From positions 1 to 44,426 of IMG/VR virus record IMGVR_UViG_3300044946_000077: a DNA stretch of 44,426 nt. One strand, given 5' to 3'. The translations under genes and the position numbers were made by a program. Source of the stretch: a virus. The notes below the pieces were generated by a model. That model saw only the letters and a program-made list of their open reading frames with translations. It ran no database searches and was not told where the DNA came from. Below, in pieces: positions 4,823-44,426 of the stretch (position 1 is its first letter; every line of letters starts with the position of its first letter).

Positions 4823-4827
4823 ACTGG

Positions 4828-5001
4828 ATGCAGGAGTGCCTCATTTGCGGGGTCGTTCAAGGCGAAGAAGTTTGCGATCGCTGCTGGGAGAAGTTTTGGA
4901 CCAATCTCGCGGCGGCGATCGCAAGCGGAGAGGTTAAAGAGGAATGGCTGAAAACATGTCAAAGAAATACTCGCTCACAGAGGAGCACCGAGCTCAACTG
5001 A
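4828..5001 (+). CDS. 57-residue zinc-ribbon protein
   Basis: Starts at ATG 4828, five bases after the previous stop, and ends in TGA at 4999-5001. The first 20 residues hold CLIC and CDRC knuckles ten residues apart, a compact zinc ribbon, followed by an amphipathic helix rich in Trp and Ala. The last third overlaps the start of the DUF6745 gene out of frame. One of about a dozen minimal zinc-binding proteins in this window. Confidence 0.55.
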   Translation: MQECLICGVVQGEEVCDRCWEKFWTNLAAAIASGEVKEEWLKTCQRNTRSQRSTELN

Positions 5002-6230
5002 AACCTTGGGCTGAGAAGTGGATCCGGAACGCCATGAGCACATCGGCGATGACGGAGGAGGATCGAACGATTTGCGTCGGTGCAGTGAAGCGACTGTACC
5101 GAGCGGCGAATCTCGAACCTCCTCCGGACCGGCGAATCATTTTCGTTCCCTCGCCGTTTGTGATGCGTTTCGCATCAGGGTTTGCGGCTTGGATTTTGTA
5201 TTTGAGAAAAAATAAAAAGCCTCCCACGCGCGACGCCACGGACGCCGCCACGTACGCCGCCACGCGCGACGCCACGGACGCCGCCACGCGCGCCGCCACG
5301 CGCGACGCCACGCGCGACGCCACGTACGACGCCACGCGCGACGCCACGGACGCCGCCACGTACGCCGCCACGCGCGACGCCACGGACGCCGCCACGGACG
5401 CCGCCACGGACGCCGCCACGCGCGACGCCACGCGCGACGCCACGCGCGACGCCACGGACGCCGCCACGCGCGACGCCACGTACGCCGCCACGCGCGACGC
5501 CACGGACGACGAAGACAACTGGTTTGTCTTGAACGGAGATCTCGTTCGTCTCGCCGAAGAGCTCGGCGTCGGCCGAGCTGGTCTGCAATGTGCTTACAAC
5601 GCCTATGCGTTTTGGCAGGGCGGAAATCAGTGGTCCGGCTGGGATGCCTTCCTATCTTTCTTCCGCCACGTCGTCAGACTCGACATCAACTACGCGGCGT
5701 ATGAGTCCTGGGAAACGTTGTCGCTTCATTCCGGTCCGCGCGCAGTGCATGCGGAATTCTGCATCATCAGCGATCGCCCGGAAGTTCTCCTGGTCGACGA
5801 GCAAAACCGCCCGCACTGCACAACCGGGCCGTTTTGCCGATGGCGCGACGGTAGCGAGCTCTATTCGGTTCACGGCACACGTGTTCCCGCGAAACTGATT
5901 CGGCATCCGGAGAAAATCACAGCGAAAGAAATCCTTGCCGAAGAAAACGCCGAAATCCGCCGCGTCATGGTTGAGCTCGTCGGTATGGAACGCTTCCTTA
6001 ACGAAGCGGGCGCGAGCTGTATCCACAAACATGAAATGGGCGATCTGTTCTCGATTGACCTACCCGGCGATCCGGACCAGGTGCTGCGTTCCGTTCGCGT
6101 GAAAGATCCTTCGACTGGTCGGATTTATTTCCTTCGTGTACCGCCAACGATTGATCGTGCCGATGACGCGGTTGCCTGGACTTTTGGTTTCGAGACGGCC
6201 AAACAGTACCGGCCGCTCGTGGAGACCTAA
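4956..6230 (+). CDS. DUF6745-type protein with internal tetrapeptide-repeat array
   Basis: A protein of about 424 residues in three parts. An N-terminal helical domain (to about nt 5228) ends in a Trp/Tyr-rich helix and KNKKPP. Then come 23 exact tetrapeptides of form [RDY][DA]AT (nt 5229-5504). The C-terminal ~240 residues match the DUF6745 pattern: NWFVLNGD, a WETLSLHSGPRAVHAEF segment, the PHCTTGPFCRW motif, a YSVHGTRVPAKLIRHPE motif, then EENAEIRRVMVELVG and a beta-rich tail. I start at ATG 4956, 12 bases after AAGAGGA; ATG 4944 is immediately at that site and less likely. Length fits DUF6745 proteins apart from the array. Function is unknown; the domain is seen in phages and bacteria. 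Confidence 0.75.
   Translation: MSKKYSLTEEHRAQLKPWAEKWIRNAMSTSAMTEEDRTICVGAVKRLYRAANLEPPPDRRIIFVPSPFVMRFASGFAAWILYLRKNKKPPTRDATDAATYAATRDATDAATRAATRDATRDATYDATRDATDAATYAATRDATDAATDAATDAATRDATRDATRDATDAATRDATYAATRDATDDEDNWFVLNGDLVRLAEELGVGRAGLQCAYNAYAFWQGGNQWSGWDAFLSFFRHVVRLDINYAAYESWETLSLHSGPRAVHAEFCIISDRPEVLLVDEQNRPHCTTGPFCRWRDGSELYSVHGTRVPAKLIRHPEKITAKEILAEENAEIRRVMVELVGMERFLNEAGASCIHKHEMGDLFSIDLPGDPDQVLRSVRVKDPSTGRIYFLRVPPTIDRADDAVAWTFGFETAKQYRPLVET
5229..5504 (+). repeat. 12-bp tandem repeat array, 23 units, coding
   Basis: Twenty-three uninterrupted 12-base units encode RDAT (11), DAAT (7), YAAT (3), RAAT (1) and YDAT (1). Codon use is invariant: Arg always CGC, Asp GAC, Tyr TAC, Ala GCC and Thr ACG. 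Every difference between units therefore changes an amino acid, and no silent change exists. This points to recent expansion or homogenisation from a few unit types. The 12-base period keeps several frames open on both strands; those frames are by-products. Confidence 0.95.
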
Positions 6231-10094: not shown

Positions 10095-10303
10095 TCTTGA
10101 TTGTCAGACTGATTCCAAACCAGCGTTGCACTGGCTGCGGCGGTCACGGCTACTGCGAGGCGAAGACCCTGCTGTGTCTTTTCTGTTTTGGCCTCAAAGT
10201 CAGCGTTGAATCGCGCAAGCGAAAACTTGTTTCGACGATGGCGCAGCGGTTCGCGTTTTTGAAGGACAAAATTCGGGCCCAGCTGAGGGAGTTCGCAAGT
10301 TGA
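10091..10303 (+). CDS. 70-residue zinc-ribbon protein
   Basis: ATG 10091 overlaps the previous TGA. CTGCGGHGYC and CLFC (residues 13-33) form a DnaJ-like zinc knuckle pattern (CxxCxGxG), followed by a basic helix (ESRKRKLVSTMAQRFAFLKDKIRAQL). It immediately precedes and overlaps the replication initiator by 4 bases. May act in replication or transcription control; not established. Confidence 0.6.
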   Translation: MILIVRLIPNQRCTGCGGHGYCEAKTLLCLFCFGLKVSVESRKRKLVSTMAQRFAFLKDKIRAQLREFAS

Positions 10304-11172
10304 ACATAGGCCTGCATGGGGGCATCACCGAAGAGAAGCATTACAGGGCGATGGGGGACGCAGTCTGGCTCTATATGTGGCTTGTGAAACGGCAAACTCG
10401 AGCGAACGGCCTGGTCTTAGGTGGGTCGCCAATCACCTACCAGAGGGTCAGCATTGAGACTCACTATTCCCCGCGGCGCGTTCGCCGATGGATGCGAATA
10501 CTGGCTGCGGCAGGCTACATTTCCGTCGCTTACCTGAACTACAAACAGATGCGAATCACGATCCTGAAAGCGAAAAAATTCGGCTCAAAGCAGCTTGTTT
10601 TGCCGATGGGAGAATCGTCCATAAATGGACCATTGCCACAAAGTGGCCATCGTCCAAATATGGACGATGGCTCCAAAACACACCATAGGCCAAAAATGGA
10701 CGATGGCACCCCCCCAAAGACGACCAAAAGTGGACGATATGACCCCCCTAACACGACCAAAAATGGACGATTCAAGCAGAGTATTAAGAACCTGAGAAGT
10801 AATGAAACACCTGAAGACCCTATCTCTCCGCCAAACGTCATGCGCACGCTCGGGGTCCTGCCTGCTCTCTGGCATCAGTACCGAAGAGTGAGAGAGACAA
10901 TCCGCCGGCCAATCGCGCCAGGCGCCGAAGACCTGATCTTCCAAGAGTTGCTCGAGTTCCAGTCGTCAGGCCAGGACCCAAGCGAAATTCTGAAGCAGGC
11001 GATCCGCACGTCATCGTGGAAGTTGTATCCAGTCAGAAACGGGGAGCAAGGCCATGAATCTTTCGCAGAAAAGAGAAGCCGGAAAACAGCGCACGCAATC
11101 TCGGGAGTTTTGGACCGTCTTGAAAAAGCATCTAGCCATCCTCAGCGAGCACTACCGCCAGCCGATAAGTGA
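10300..11172 (+). CDS. Replication initiator (winged-helix, O/DnaD-like) containing the probable origin
   Basis: 290 residues. The start TTG is coupled to the previous gene. Residues 1-90 form a winged-helix replication-initiator domain: GDAVWLYMWLVKRQ, a turn, then ITYQRVSIETHYSPRRVRRWMRILAAAGYI. The middle (about 100-170) is low-complexity Pro/Lys/Asp-rich and corresponds to DNA packed with iterons (10614-10771). The C-terminal part (about 185-260, LGVLPALWHQYRRV..., EDLIFQELLEF) is helical and could contact the helicase loader encoded next. This plan parallels lambda O, whose gene contains the origin. Assignment to initiator is by architecture and context (loader and RusA downstream), not by a diagnostic motif. 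Confidence 0.7.
   Translation: MNIGLHGGITEEKHYRAMGDAVWLYMWLVKRQTRANGLVLGGSPITYQRVSIETHYSPRRVRRWMRILAAAGYISVAYLNYKQMRITILKAKKFGSKQLVLPMGESSINGPLPQSGHRPNMDDGSKTHHRPKMDDGTPPKTTKSGRYDPPNTTKNGRFKQSIKNLRSNETPEDPISPPNVMRTLGVLPALWHQYRRVRETIRRPIAPGAEDLIFQELLEFQSSGQDPSEILKQAIRTSSWKLYPVRNGEQGHESFAEKRSRKTAHAISGVLDRLEKASSHPQRALPPADK
10614..10771. repeat. Iteron cluster, candidate replication origin
   Basis: The octamer TGGACGAT occurs directly at 10661-10668, 10697-10704, 10731-10738 and 10764-10771, spaced 36, 34 and 33 bases. The last three copies have the longer consensus CCAAAA(A/G)TGGACGAT. Reverse copies stand at 10614-10621 and 10649-10656. Arms CCATCGTCCA (10647-10656) and TGGACGATGG (10661-10670) make a perfect 10-bp dyad with a 4-base loop. 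A weaker dyad pairs 10614-10621 with TGGACCAT at 10626-10633. The cluster lies within the initiator gene, exactly as in lambda-type origins. The copies are read in two different frames (MDDG versus SGRY/NGRF), so selection is on DNA. Confidence 0.75.
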
Positions 11173-12880: not shown

Positions 12881-12931
12881 CGAAGGAACGCAACGTACTG
12901 ATTGCTTCAGGCGCAGAAAAGAGACCAGCCC

Positions 12932-13141
12932 ATGAAACTTCCTTGCCCCACTTGCGGTGCGGCAACAGAAGTTCTCGAAGTCGGATTGTTGAAAACAGAA
13001 GGCATCGTCAAGCGGCGAAGGAAGTGTAAAACCTGCGGTTTTCGATTCTCTTCGGTCGAGATGCCCGTCACCCTTGCTCGCAAATTAATCCAGCGTGCAA
13101 ACCTCCAAAAAGGCTCCGAGACCCTACCGGTAGGGGTATGA
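12932..13141 (+). CDS. NrdR-like zinc-ribbon protein
   Basis: 69 residues from ATG 12932. KLPCPTCGAATEVLEV ... IVKRRRKCKTCGFRFSSVEMP reproduces the zinc-ribbon DNA-binding half of NrdR, including the RRR-C-xx-C-x-x-RF core. The ATP-cone domain is absent. Such fragments are common in phages and resemble Ogr/NrdR-type activators, so it could be a late-gene transcription factor acting at the promoter region just downstream. That role is inference from position. The 3' end of the gene contains a perfect palindrome (13122-13135). Confidence 0.7.
   Translation: MKLPCPTCGAATEVLEVGLLKTEGIVKRRRKCKTCGFRFSSVEMPVTLARKLIQRANLQKGSETLPVGV
13122..13135. promoter_or_regulatory. Perfect 14-bp palindrome, possible operator
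   Basis: CCCTACCGGTAGGG reads identically on both strands with no loop. It overlaps the last codons of the NrdR-like gene and lies about 20-30 bases upstream of the promoter candidate that leads to the late region, a position suited to an activator or repressor. As a coding segment it specifies only TLPVG. Not known to me as a named operator. Confidence 0.4.
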
Positions 13142-13152
13142 GTTGATTTTTC

Positions 13153-13182
13153 TTGAATTCTATACAGGGAACACCTTAGAAC
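13153..13182 (+). promoter_or_regulatory. Candidate late-region promoter
   Basis: TTGAAT (13153-13158) and TAGAAC (13177-13182) at 18 bases spacing make a reasonable sigma70-type promoter, predicting a start near 13189. That is just before the strong RNA helix beginning at 13195. TATACA (13161-13166) is a competing -10 but lacks a -35 at the right distance. No other promoter of similar quality was noticed between here and the terminase genes. Confidence 0.4.
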
Positions 13183-13189
13183 TAGCCTG

Positions 13190-13277
13190 CACAAGGCGAG
13201 TGCCAGCCGTGGGCTCCGTGAGGAGCTGAGGGCTGGGCCGGTTGGCACCGCCAAACATTTGGCTCCTCCTGGCAGCC
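13190..13277 (+). ncRNA. Candidate structured RNA / leader upstream of terminase genes
   Basis: The DNA from 13142 to 13326 has no supported gene but folds strongly. GGCG-A-GTGCCAGCC (13195-13208) pairs with GGTTGGCACCGCC (13240-13252): 13 pairs with one bulged A and one G-U. Inside, GCTCC (13213-13217) pairs with GGAGC (13222-13226) across a GUGA tetraloop of the GNRA class. A second hairpin pairs GGCT (13261-13264) with AGCC (13274-13277). It could be a regulatory leader, a small RNA, or part of a packaging (pac/cos) site. It matches no family I recognise, and no T-run follows, so it is not a simple terminator. Confidence 0.5.
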
Positions 13278-13326
13278 GTCAACTAGACCGGGTGTGATTC
13301 ATAACTCGACCCCGCGTCTCTAAATT

Positions 13327-13719
13327 TTGGCAGCGAAGAAAAACATTCTCGTCCCGCACAGCTTCACAGCCGCAGACCTGCCATCACTCCAAACTTCCTC
13401 GAAACTTTACGCACGCCTCAGCAACTCTGAAGTTTACGAAGCAGAAAAACTTAATCTCATCGAATGGCTGCACAAGCCGCTGCACCGCCGCGATCGCGGA
13501 GTTGTCCGTCAAATCCGATCGATTGGCATTCGCGGACTCTCTTGCAAACTCGGAGAGCCGCTCGCTGTTGCTGTTCAACAGAAGGAACCATGGGCACAAG
13601 TCATGCTCGCCCACATCCAGATGCGACGCGAATCAGCAAGCGCGACTGCGCCACTCCAGGCTGCGGACGCACTGCTGTTAGCGAAAGCTTCTGCGGTGTT
13701 TGCCGAGAGAATTTTCTAG
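13327..13719 (+). CDS. Unknown protein, possibly first gene of late operon
   Basis: 130 residues from TTG 13327, the only start after an in-frame stop at 13321, with no ribosome site. Codon choice and an even residue mix over the first ~95 residues (LYARLSNSEVYEAEKLNLIEWLHKPLHRRDRGVVRQI) look coding. The last 130 bases overlap the next gene out of frame. It may be translated from a leader or be a remnant. No family recognised. Confidence 0.4.
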   Translation: MAAKKNILVPHSFTAADLPSLQTSSKLYARLSNSEVYEAEKLNLIEWLHKPLHRRDRGVVRQIRSIGIRGLSCKLGEPLAVAVQQKEPWAQVMLAHIQMRRESASATAPLQAADALLLAKASAVFAERIF

Positions 13720-14098: not shown

Positions 14099-14182
14099 AA
14101 GAACGACGAATATTGCGTGGCTGGCGCTGGCTGAAGCATTTCCTTGGCATCGAAGGCTGCATCGAGCGGCGCAAGAATTGCA

Positions 14183-14617
14183 GTGGCTGAAAAGAAAAAA
14201 CAGCGTGGGCGCATCGAAAACCTCAAGCCGTGGAAGCCGGGCCAAAGCGGCAACTCGCAAGGGTACTCGCGAAAGAGGCGCATCCAAGACAGGCTCAACG
14301 AAATCCTCGATCGCACGAGAGACGGCAAAACGATCGAAGAAGCGATCTGCGAGCAAATCGCGCATTCCGCTCTCCACGGCGACATCAACGCCTTCGTTGC
14401 TATTGCCGATCGCACCGACGGAAAACCTCGCCAAGCCATTGAGCACAGCGGACCAGACGGCGGATCTATCCCAATCACTCTCCCAGAAGTCCAAAAGCGA
14501 ATCGCCGAGCTCCTCGCCGCTGGCGGCTATCGCGAACCTGCCTCCAGAACAGCAGACGGAAATTCATCGGCTCCTGGAAATGGAGAGCTTGCTAAAGAGC
14601 CAAGCGGAGCTTCGTGA
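14183..14617 (+). CDS. terS: DUF5681-type protein, probable terminase small subunit
   Basis: 144 residues from GTG 14183 (an upstream TTG at 14144 would add 13 residues; neither has a strong ribosome site). The start KPWKPGQSGNSQG with a basic leader (AEKKKQRGR) is the diagnostic DUF5681 motif. Then come a helical region (RRIQDRLNEILDR, EEAICEQIAHSALHGDINAFVAIADRTDGKP) and a flexible tail. DUF5681 proteins regularly precede large terminases and probably recognise phage DNA for packaging. The 3' end overlaps the large-subunit frame. Confidence 0.7.
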   Translation: MAEKKKQRGRIENLKPWKPGQSGNSQGYSRKRRIQDRLNEILDRTRDGKTIEEAICEQIAHSALHGDINAFVAIADRTDGKPRQAIEHSGPDGGSIPITLPEVQKRIAELLAAGGYREPASRTADGNSSAPGNGELAKEPSGAS

Positions 14618-16022
14618 CCTTGCTTCTTTTGCGCGTGGCGCATGGCCTGTTCTCGAGCCTGGCACAGAGCTGAAATGGAACTGGCACCTCGACCTCATCG
14701 CCGAATACTTGACGCTAGTGCAGCAGCGCGTGATTCGTCGGCTCATCATCAACGTTCCGCCGCAAACAATGAAATCGCGCTTCGTGAACGTGTTCTATCC
14801 CACCTGGTCTTGGAGTCAGATTCCGACGCGGCGCTTTCTGTCGAGCTCGTATTCTGGCGATCTTTCCGAAGGGTTCAACGTGGAACGGTCGAAGCTCGTG
14901 CGGTCCGAATGGTTCCAGCAGATGTTTCCGGCGAAGGTCTCACTGAGCCAGGACACGCAAGCGCAGATCGAGAACGAAGTCGGTGGCCGTATGACAGCGA
15001 CGTCGACTGGAGGAACAGCGACCGGGAAGGGCGCGCACGACGTAATCATCGACGATCCGCTCAATCCCAAACTCGCAGCTTCCGAAGTGGAGCTTGCAGC
15101 GTCGAACAATTTTTTCGACGACACACTCCGCACACGCCTTTCCGACCAGGCGACAGGCGTGTTCGTGATTGTGATGCAGCGCCTCGACTACCAGGACTTG
15201 ACCGGCCACGTGCTGGCAAAGAATCCCGGCGAGTGGACGCACATCAAGATTCCCATGGTTGCCGAAGAGGAAGAGCGCTGGACTTTCCCGATCAGCGGAC
15301 GCGTCGTCGTGCGGCAGCCTGGCGACTTGCTTTGGCAGGACAGATTTCCGGAGTCAGTCGTCGCGAGTCTGAAGACGGACATGGGCACGCGATCGTACGA
15401 AGGCCAGTACCAGCAACGCCCATCACCGAAGGGCGGAAACATCATCAAGGAAAACTGGATCAAGTACTGGCGCGTGATGCCGCAGAGCTTCGACCAGGTG
15501 ATTCAGTCGTGGGATATGTCGTTCGCTGACACAAAAACTTCTAGCTTTGTCGTTGGCCAGGTCTGGGGCCGGCTCGGCGCACGCAAGCTTTTGCTGGCCG
15601 AAGTGCACAAACGCATGGACTTCGTCGAAACCGTTCGCGAAGTCAGGCAGATGAGCGGCAACTGGCCACAAGCTCACGCAAAGCTTGTCGAGAACAAAGC
15701 GAATGGGCCGGCGGTGATCTCGGCGCTGAAGCTCGAAGTTGACGGATTGATTGCAGTCGAGCCGGACGGCGACAAAGCCGCGCGCATGTATGCAGTGAGT
15801 CCGGACTACGAAGCCGGGAACGTCGAGGTTCCCGATCCGACAATGCCTGGCTACGGCTGGGTCGAAGAGCACGTCGCTGAAATCATCCGCTTTCCTGGAA
15901 AGCCAAACGACCGCGGCGATGCGGTAAGCCAGGCGTTGAAGCGGCTGCGATCGTTCCCGTCAGGAATTGCGAGCTTCTACCAGGAAATCGCAGAACCGAA
16001 AGTGCAAGGAGCTGCAGCGTGA
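14580..16022 (+). CDS. terL: Terminase large subunit
   Basis: 480 residues if started at ATG 14580, the only normal start near the family's N-terminus. The preceding in-frame codons (LPPEQQTEIHRLLE) look homologous to terminase starts, so a CTG at 14520 or 14538 may be the real one. ATPase: atypical Walker A NVPPQTMKS (58-66), Walker B with VIIDDP. Nuclease: SWDMSFADTKTSSFVVGQVWG with the first catalytic Asp, the VENKANGPAVI segment and the terminal DRGDAVSQAL Asp, all of the Terminase_6/gp17 type. It drives DNA into the prohead and cuts it. The frame is open 500 bases upstream, but that stretch is an out-of-frame read of DUF5681. Confidence 0.92.
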   Translation: MESLLKSQAELRDLASFARGAWPVLEPGTELKWNWHLDLIAEYLTLVQQRVIRRLIINVPPQTMKSRFVNVFYPTWSWSQIPTRRFLSSSYSGDLSEGFNVERSKLVRSEWFQQMFPAKVSLSQDTQAQIENEVGGRMTATSTGGTATGKGAHDVIIDDPLNPKLAASEVELAASNNFFDDTLRTRLSDQATGVFVIVMQRLDYQDLTGHVLAKNPGEWTHIKIPMVAEEEERWTFPISGRVVVRQPGDLLWQDRFPESVVASLKTDMGTRSYEGQYQQRPSPKGGNIIKENWIKYWRVMPQSFDQVIQSWDMSFADTKTSSFVVGQVWGRLGARKLLLAEVHKRMDFVETVREVRQMSGNWPQAHAKLVENKANGPAVISALKLEVDGLIAVEPDGDKAARMYAVSPDYEAGNVEVPDPTMPGYGWVEEHVAEIIRFPGKPNDRGDAVSQALKRLRSFPSGIASFYQEIAEPKVQGAAA

Positions 16023-29331: not shown

Positions 29332-29358
29332 GGGCGGCGTGATGCCGCCCTTTTTGTT
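29332..29358 (+). terminator. Rho-independent terminator before capsid gene
   Basis: GGGCGGC (29332-29338), loop GTGAT, GCCGCCC (29344-29350), then TTTTTGTTT. A perfect intrinsic terminator between the protease/scaffold gene and the major capsid gene. It implies either partial termination or a separate capsid promoter in 29359-29411, where I could not identify one with confidence. Confidence 0.85.
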
Positions 29359-30872: not shown

Positions 30873-30910
30873 ACGAAATCGCCGGGCTGGCCGCACCAGC
30901 TCGGTGAAGG

Positions 30911-30983
30911 ATCCGGGATGCGCCTCCTGGATCCGGGATTGCGGAGAGCGCTGAAACCTCCCAGCGCTCTCCGCATCATTTTT
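30911..30983 (+). terminator. Double hairpin with strong terminator after capsid gene
   Basis: First hairpin: ATCCGGGA (30911-30918) with TCCTGGAT (30925-30932), one G-U. It is formed within a direct repeat GGATCCGGGAT (30909-30919 and 30929-30939). Second: a 13-bp stem, 30940-30952 (TGCGGAGAGCGCT) with 30963-30975 (AGCGCTCTCCGCA), loop of 10, then TCATTTTTC. This is a strong intrinsic terminator ending the capsid transcript. Confidence 0.85.
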
Positions 30984-30994
30984 CGGACTGAACT

Positions 30995-44116: not shown

Positions 44117-44426
44117 CTAACCAGCTTTCGTCAGCGTTCCGTTTCCAGTATCGCCGGCGCATGAGCCGGCGGTTACAATGTACGTTCCTGCGATCGTTCC
44201 GAAGACGGCATCCTTCGAGACCAGCACGAACGTCACCGAATTTCCCTGAAGGTCCGCTGCCGTGATTTCCGCAGCACCGCCGACTTGCTGGCCGGTTAGC
44301 GTGAGCGAGCTGAAGCAGATCGATCCGCCGACCATGGCGTTGCCGGTGATCGTGAAAGCGGAGTTGGAAGAAATGGTCGCAGTGACCGAGAACGGCGAGT
44401 TTGGCGCGGAATTGCTTTTGATGGTG
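44117..44426 (-). CDS. Lipoprotein with Ig-like repeats, C-terminal part (gene crosses contig ends)
   Basis: Completes the gene beginning at 587. Reading continues in phase: codon phase at 44335 equals phase at 44 in the left copy. This part adds beta strands (GGSICFSSLTLTGQQVGGAAEITA, NSVTFVLVSKDAVFGTIAGTYIV) with two cysteines, and ends GDTGNGTLTKAG. The stop codon (44119-44117) is followed after ten bases by the start of the next minus-strand gene. See the left part for function. Confidence 0.8.
   Translation of the reverse strand, partial: TIKSNSAPNSPFSVTATISSNSAFTITGNAMVGGSICFSSLTLTGQQVGGAAEITAADLQGNSVTFVLVSKDAVFGTIAGTYIVTAGSCAGDTGNGTLTKAG
44292..44426. repeat. Terminal direct repeat, right copy
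   Basis: Same 135 bases as 1-135 except T at 44418 for G at 127. Removing one copy gives a circle of 44,291 bases with an intact lipoprotein gene. Confidence 0.9.

Follow-up and report, generated by a model that had tools for sequence, protein, structure and literature searches.

The gene-free stretch at positions 13142-13326 of the viral record IMGVR_UViG_3300044946_000077, analyzed here over all of its 44,426 nucleotides (the window), is best explained as a promoter followed by a structured 5' untranslated leader of the late transcript. The leader is proposed to have a largely sequence-independent role in cis, such as that of a 5'-terminal stem-loop shielding the mRNA, and we assign this reading a probability of about 40%. 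The proposal of a sequence-independent role is based on related phages, in which position and folding are kept while the sequence differs. In each of three relatives the gene order and the promoter position are retained and a folded leader lies between the promoter and the first open reading frame (ORF), which favors the late-operon leader among the possibilities named in a preliminary description of this DNA.

The stretch is the gap between the stop codon of a gene for an NrdR-like zinc-ribbon protein (12932-13141, plus strand; Pfam PF22811, E 9.8e-10), the last gene before the leader, and a TTG-started ORF of 130 aa (13327-13719, plus strand), the first of the late region. An in-frame TTG is also present at 12902, upstream of the annotated start of the zinc-ribbon gene. 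The stretch was previously placed at the early/late boundary, and this placement agrees with the gene content: replication and recombination genes (an O-like initiator, RusA, and exonucleases) lie upstream, and terminase, portal, protease, head and tail genes lie downstream. All major ORFs of the record are on the plus strand, and the late region spans approximately 31 kb. The stretch is indeed free of genes, as it contains no plus-strand ORF of at least 60 aa; a coding explanation was rejected on these grounds, the minus-strand ORFs being very short or overlapping the zinc-ribbon gene.

The first late ORF shares 41-42% identity with its homologues in the three relatives and has no family match in Pfam or PHROGs; its AlphaFold prediction (mean pLDDT 43) gave no usable model. 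No Shine-Dalgarno-like sequence was found upstream of its TTG start, a property common to several further ORFs in the record. It is followed by a gene for a DUF5681 protein (14144-14617, plus strand; Pfam PF18932, E 1.3e-9), which is probably the small terminase, judging from its position, and by the gene for the large terminase, TerL (14628-16022, plus strand, for the part homologous to known TerL; phrog_38, E 1.4e-81; 70% identity in the three relatives). Several other elements were observed in the early part of the window. A good promoter candidate, TTGACA..CAATAT, is located at 680-730, ahead of a small helix-turn-helix (Cro/repressor-like) ORF at 705-935. At 5176-5571, within a DUF6745 gene (4944-6230), a 12-nt unit is repeated in tandem about 22 times. 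Three partly palindromic repeats of about 28 nt (CCATCGTCCAAATATGGACGATGG type, 35-36 nt spacing) occur at 10612-10710 within the O-like replication gene (10300-11172) and look like a lambda-type iteron origin.

The three syntenic relatives were reached in IMG/VR via TerL and the protein of the first ORF: IMGVR_UViG_3300038451_000172 (L017), 3300039307_000027 (L018, also L002), and 3300037993_000227 (L019). Their common gene order is zinc ribbon, a gap of 124-130 nt, TTG-started ORF, small zinc-finger ORF, DUF5681, and TerL, with zinc-ribbon homologues of 35-36% identity at the same place. Thus, all four genomes have in common the succession of zinc ribbon, promoter-like site, leader, TTG-started ORF, DUF5681, and TerL. 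Further zinc-ribbon relatives (L036-L039) were set aside, their contexts being unrelated. Because the three relatives form one close group, the positional argument amounts to a comparison of two independent leaders.

The candidate promoter of the window consists of TTGAAT (13153-13158) and TAGAAC (13177-13182) on the plus strand, separated by 18 nt, with a predicted start at about 13189. It agrees with the consensus at 8 of 12 positions and was therefore missed by a 9-of-12 scan; the pattern TTGA-N20-NA[TG]AAC occurs only here in the window. In all three relatives, a better sequence, TTGACG-N18-CATAAC, is found directly behind the zinc-ribbon stop codon and matches the window site in position and spacing; its TTGAC and CATAAC hexamers are constant, although the promoter spacer of L019 differs. 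Since the relatives carry a promoter-like sequence at the corresponding place, the window promoter is raised from a weak consensus match to a positionally conserved site, in support of the promoter and the start near 13189 proposed in the preliminary description. From these sequence features we infer transcription and its start site. The promoter spacers of the relatives also contain a direct repeat with 9-bp spacing whose copies change together (taken singly, only the repeat of L019 reaches significance, p 0.007, in a post hoc test) and which is not present in the promoter spacer of the window. A second promoter at 13300, where 'CATAACTC' matches the -10 of the relatives over nine bases, was rejected because no -35 match is suitably spaced from it.

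Six bases past the predicted start, sequence inspection and folding recovered the previously described 13-pair helix with a bulged A (13195-13252, plus strand). Its 5' strand, GGCG(A)GTGCCAGCC at 13195-13208 with A13199 bulged, pairs with GGTTGGCACCGCC at 13240-13252. The helix encloses two small hairpins, including the anticipated GNRA-capped one (13212-13227, loop GUGA). It is followed by a weak middle hairpin (13261-13277) and by the expected second hairpin (13285-13319, z -2.3), both on the plus strand. The 3' strand of the second hairpin ends in GCGTCT, which in the alignment also precedes the ORF in all three relatives. This end overlaps a conserved plus-strand block of the four-genome alignment, GCGTCTCTAAA, which reaches the TTG start codon (13314-13329); the last 16 or so bases before the start codon are common to all four genomes with small differences. 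The T-run is absent after either hairpin, and hence neither is an ordinary terminator, as had been noted.

The 67-nt core of this structure (13190-13256) has a folding energy of -38.4 kcal/mol on the plus strand (z -4.0, none of 200 shuffles as good) and folds clearly less well on the minus strand (z -2.2). A near-isoenergetic alternative (-37.7) pairs CCAGCC with GGCTGG and lengthens the GNRA hairpin. For the whole 185 nt, the MFE is -73.6 on the plus strand (z -3.5, 1 of 200 shuffles as good), and the minus strand gives z -1.7. In a GC-corrected scan of the 44-kb record with 70-nt windows, the core ranks ninth on the plus strand, first place being taken by the surroundings of the terminator that follows the phrog_13692 gene. 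The z-score of the whole stretch, computed separately, would rank it third when set beside the 22 other scored gene gaps; the two stronger ones are the gap following the probable major head gene (z -8.1) and that at 4823-4943 (z -3.6), the latter containing a long inverted repeat, GCGATCGC..GCGATCGC. The leader fold is therefore locally more than expected by chance but not unique in the genome. The eight same-strand places that fold better would suit a hairpin that is functionless, arisen by chance or by an insertion specific to the window; so would the gap of the window, which is about 55 bp longer than that of the relatives, and the lack of any counterpart of the helix there. The z-score of the core argues against this possibility, as does the presence of folded leaders at the equivalent position in the relatives, and we consider it unlikely, though not negligible.

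The folding of the leader is common to the window and the three relatives. The leaders of the relatives fold with z-scores of -1.9, -3.7, and -3.3, beginning about 10 nt past the predicted start, into one consensus structure: a long hairpin closed by GACGCTG/CAGCGTC (with one G-U variant in L019) and having an inner part GCCC.GC/GC.GGGC. At the sequence level, the window hairpin aligns locally with these leaders no better than shuffled sequences do (p 0.35-0.84). The 3' part of the window leader, from 13257, beats most shuffles only against L018 (p 0.01), largely via the GCGTCTCT block. The extra 55 bp or so in the window gap would fit an added or replaced hairpin.

No homologue of the helix was found by an exact DNA pattern search in IMG/VR or by blastn in phage records, and protein-led searches with the first ORF, TerL, and the zinc ribbon returned only the three syntenic relatives, none of which has the helix. 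The covariance analysis suggested in the preliminary description consequently had no compensatory changes to score; none of the 24 pairs in the leader that the relatives share differs in both bases among the three sequences. The suggested Rfam search was also negative: none of the 4227 families matched the window at the gathering cut-off, and none matched the region 12900-13600 up to E 5. Structured phage late leaders are a known kind of element, and no known RNA family fits the leader of the window. A sequence-conserved riboregulator is thus unsupported, given that the helix is missing from the relatives and has neither covariation nor an Rfam match. The phage small RNA that was also put forward, an independent transcript begun at about 13189, has in its favor the promoter candidate and the compact fold; since the fold is followed by neither a terminator nor a T-run, a late ORF comes immediately afterwards, and there is no conservation, it is highly improbable.

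Part of the comparison speaks against a generic hairpin. The three relatives agree in all of a 36-base leader block close to the predicted start, and in the first 126 nt of their ORF (5001-5126 in L017, L018, and L019) third-position changes number 2-4 per 42 codons, compared with 19-33 per 68 codons in the remainder. Either a cis element extends into the ORF or the segment was recently exchanged; together, the invariant block and the scarce third-position changes point to a possible sequence-specific role or to a recent exchange.

The continuation of this constrained block into the ORF would also accord with a site that acts as DNA rather than RNA, namely an operator, a packaging site (pac/cos), or other dyads bound by a protein. 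Both the window (GCCAAACATTTGGC) and the relatives (GACGCTGCGTC) have perfect or near dyads, and the minus strand of the leader folds well in two relatives (z -2.7 and -3.5), so that symmetry at the DNA level retains some weight. The window itself shows the clear plus-strand preference given above. A packaging site in particular is somewhat disfavored by the location of the probable small-terminase gene, about 800 bp downstream of the stretch, and by the genome ends. The window record has a direct end repeat (1-135 and 44292-44426, 99% identity over 135 nt), in a diverged relative (G001) the ends repeat over 92 nt and the break point lies elsewhere, and both look like complete circular assemblies that give no sign of a fixed end at this place; their different break points mildly favor headful packaging. 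We regard a DNA-level site as rather unlikely overall.

The main alternative is that the leader serves processive antitermination: RNA transcribed from the late promoter would modify RNA polymerase for terminator read-through in the late operon of approximately 31 kb, acting either by itself, as put does, or jointly with the neighboring zinc-ribbon protein, in a logic like that of conAn or Q. Canonical intrinsic terminators do occur within this operon on the plus strand, at 29332-29356, just before the phrog_13692 gene, whose product is probably the major head protein, and at 30941-30985, a strong one, after the same gene. No promoter-like site with at least 8 of 12 matches was found between the first of them and the phrog_13692 gene, and in G001, too, this gene is preceded by a terminator, there with a T6 run. 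By lying immediately after the last early gene, the leader occupies the position that the late promoter and its leader have in lambdoid phages. The direct repeat in the promoter spacers of the relatives, between -35 and -10, where a Q-binding element would be expected, could also be read in this sense. Among known examples, putL is an RNA of about 70 nt that forms two stem-loops immediately after its promoter (PMC9378689), and operons of such length with internal terminators are often headed by an antitermination system, including ones of protein and RNA (PMC8955417). Against this alternative, blastn with the whole HK022 genome gave no similarity beyond chance (best E 0.15-0.25) for the leader of the window or for that of the relatives, the leader sequence differs between the window and the relatives even within the phage group, the zinc-ribbon protein has no Q family match in Pfam or PHROGs, the leader itself has no terminator, and terminators around head genes also occur merely for the tuning of expression. 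Antitermination by the leader is accordingly doubtful. Still less probable is its most specific form, a new late-operon system in which RNA folds that differ between related phages but occupy one site would load onto RNA polymerase, possibly with the zinc-ribbon protein as a partner, and let it pass the terminators around the major head gene. If the leader does let RNA polymerase pass the head-gene terminators, it would add one from an uncultured phage lineage to the very small number of antitermination RNAs known. The gap after the phrog_13692 gene, which has the z-score of -8.1, also holds an 11-bp direct repeat, GGATCCGGGAT (30909-30939, copies about 20 nt apart), just before the terminator.

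In the preferred reading, that of a structured late leader, transcription would start near 13189 and the late mRNA would open with a very stable stem-loop, the second hairpin preceding the first start codon. The 5'-terminal stem-loop may shield the late mRNA from decay that begins at the 5' end, and the leader may hold the weak first start codon in a fixed context; this protection, and any effect on translation, we infer from position and predicted folding. The 13-pair helix is rather short for an RNase III processing duplex. If it only protects or tunes the late mRNA, the leader would be an ordinary structured phage leader marking the divide between early and late transcription in an unclassified phage group.

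Among known systems, putL and putR of HK022, RNAs that suppress pausing and termination, resemble the window leader in being structured, in their size of about 70 nt, and in their place directly after a phage promoter from which a long operon starts. However, put consists of two side-by-side stem-loops and heads an early operon, whereas the window leader, dissimilar in sequence to HK022, has as its predicted MFE structure one long bulged helix with inner hairpins (with the near-equal alternative) and heads a late operon. The lambdoid pR' promoter with Q shares the promoter directly behind the last early gene, the structured leader, and the terminators among downstream late genes. The window differs in having an NrdR-like zinc ribbon as the upstream gene in place of a Q homologue, a leader without a terminator, and a late region whose first genes are a small ORF and those for the terminase; Q, moreover, acts via DNA elements and not via the leader fold. 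The conAn system of Gram-positive conjugation operons likewise combines a small gene and an RNA at the head of an operon of about 30 kb with internal terminators, a likeness in layout, but the small gene of the window precedes the transcript rather than lying within it. Finally, 5'-terminal stem-loops of the ompA type stabilize bacterial mRNAs, and the window leader resembles them in its stable predicted hairpin, at most about 6 nt from the predicted 5' end, and in a structure that is kept while the sequence changes.
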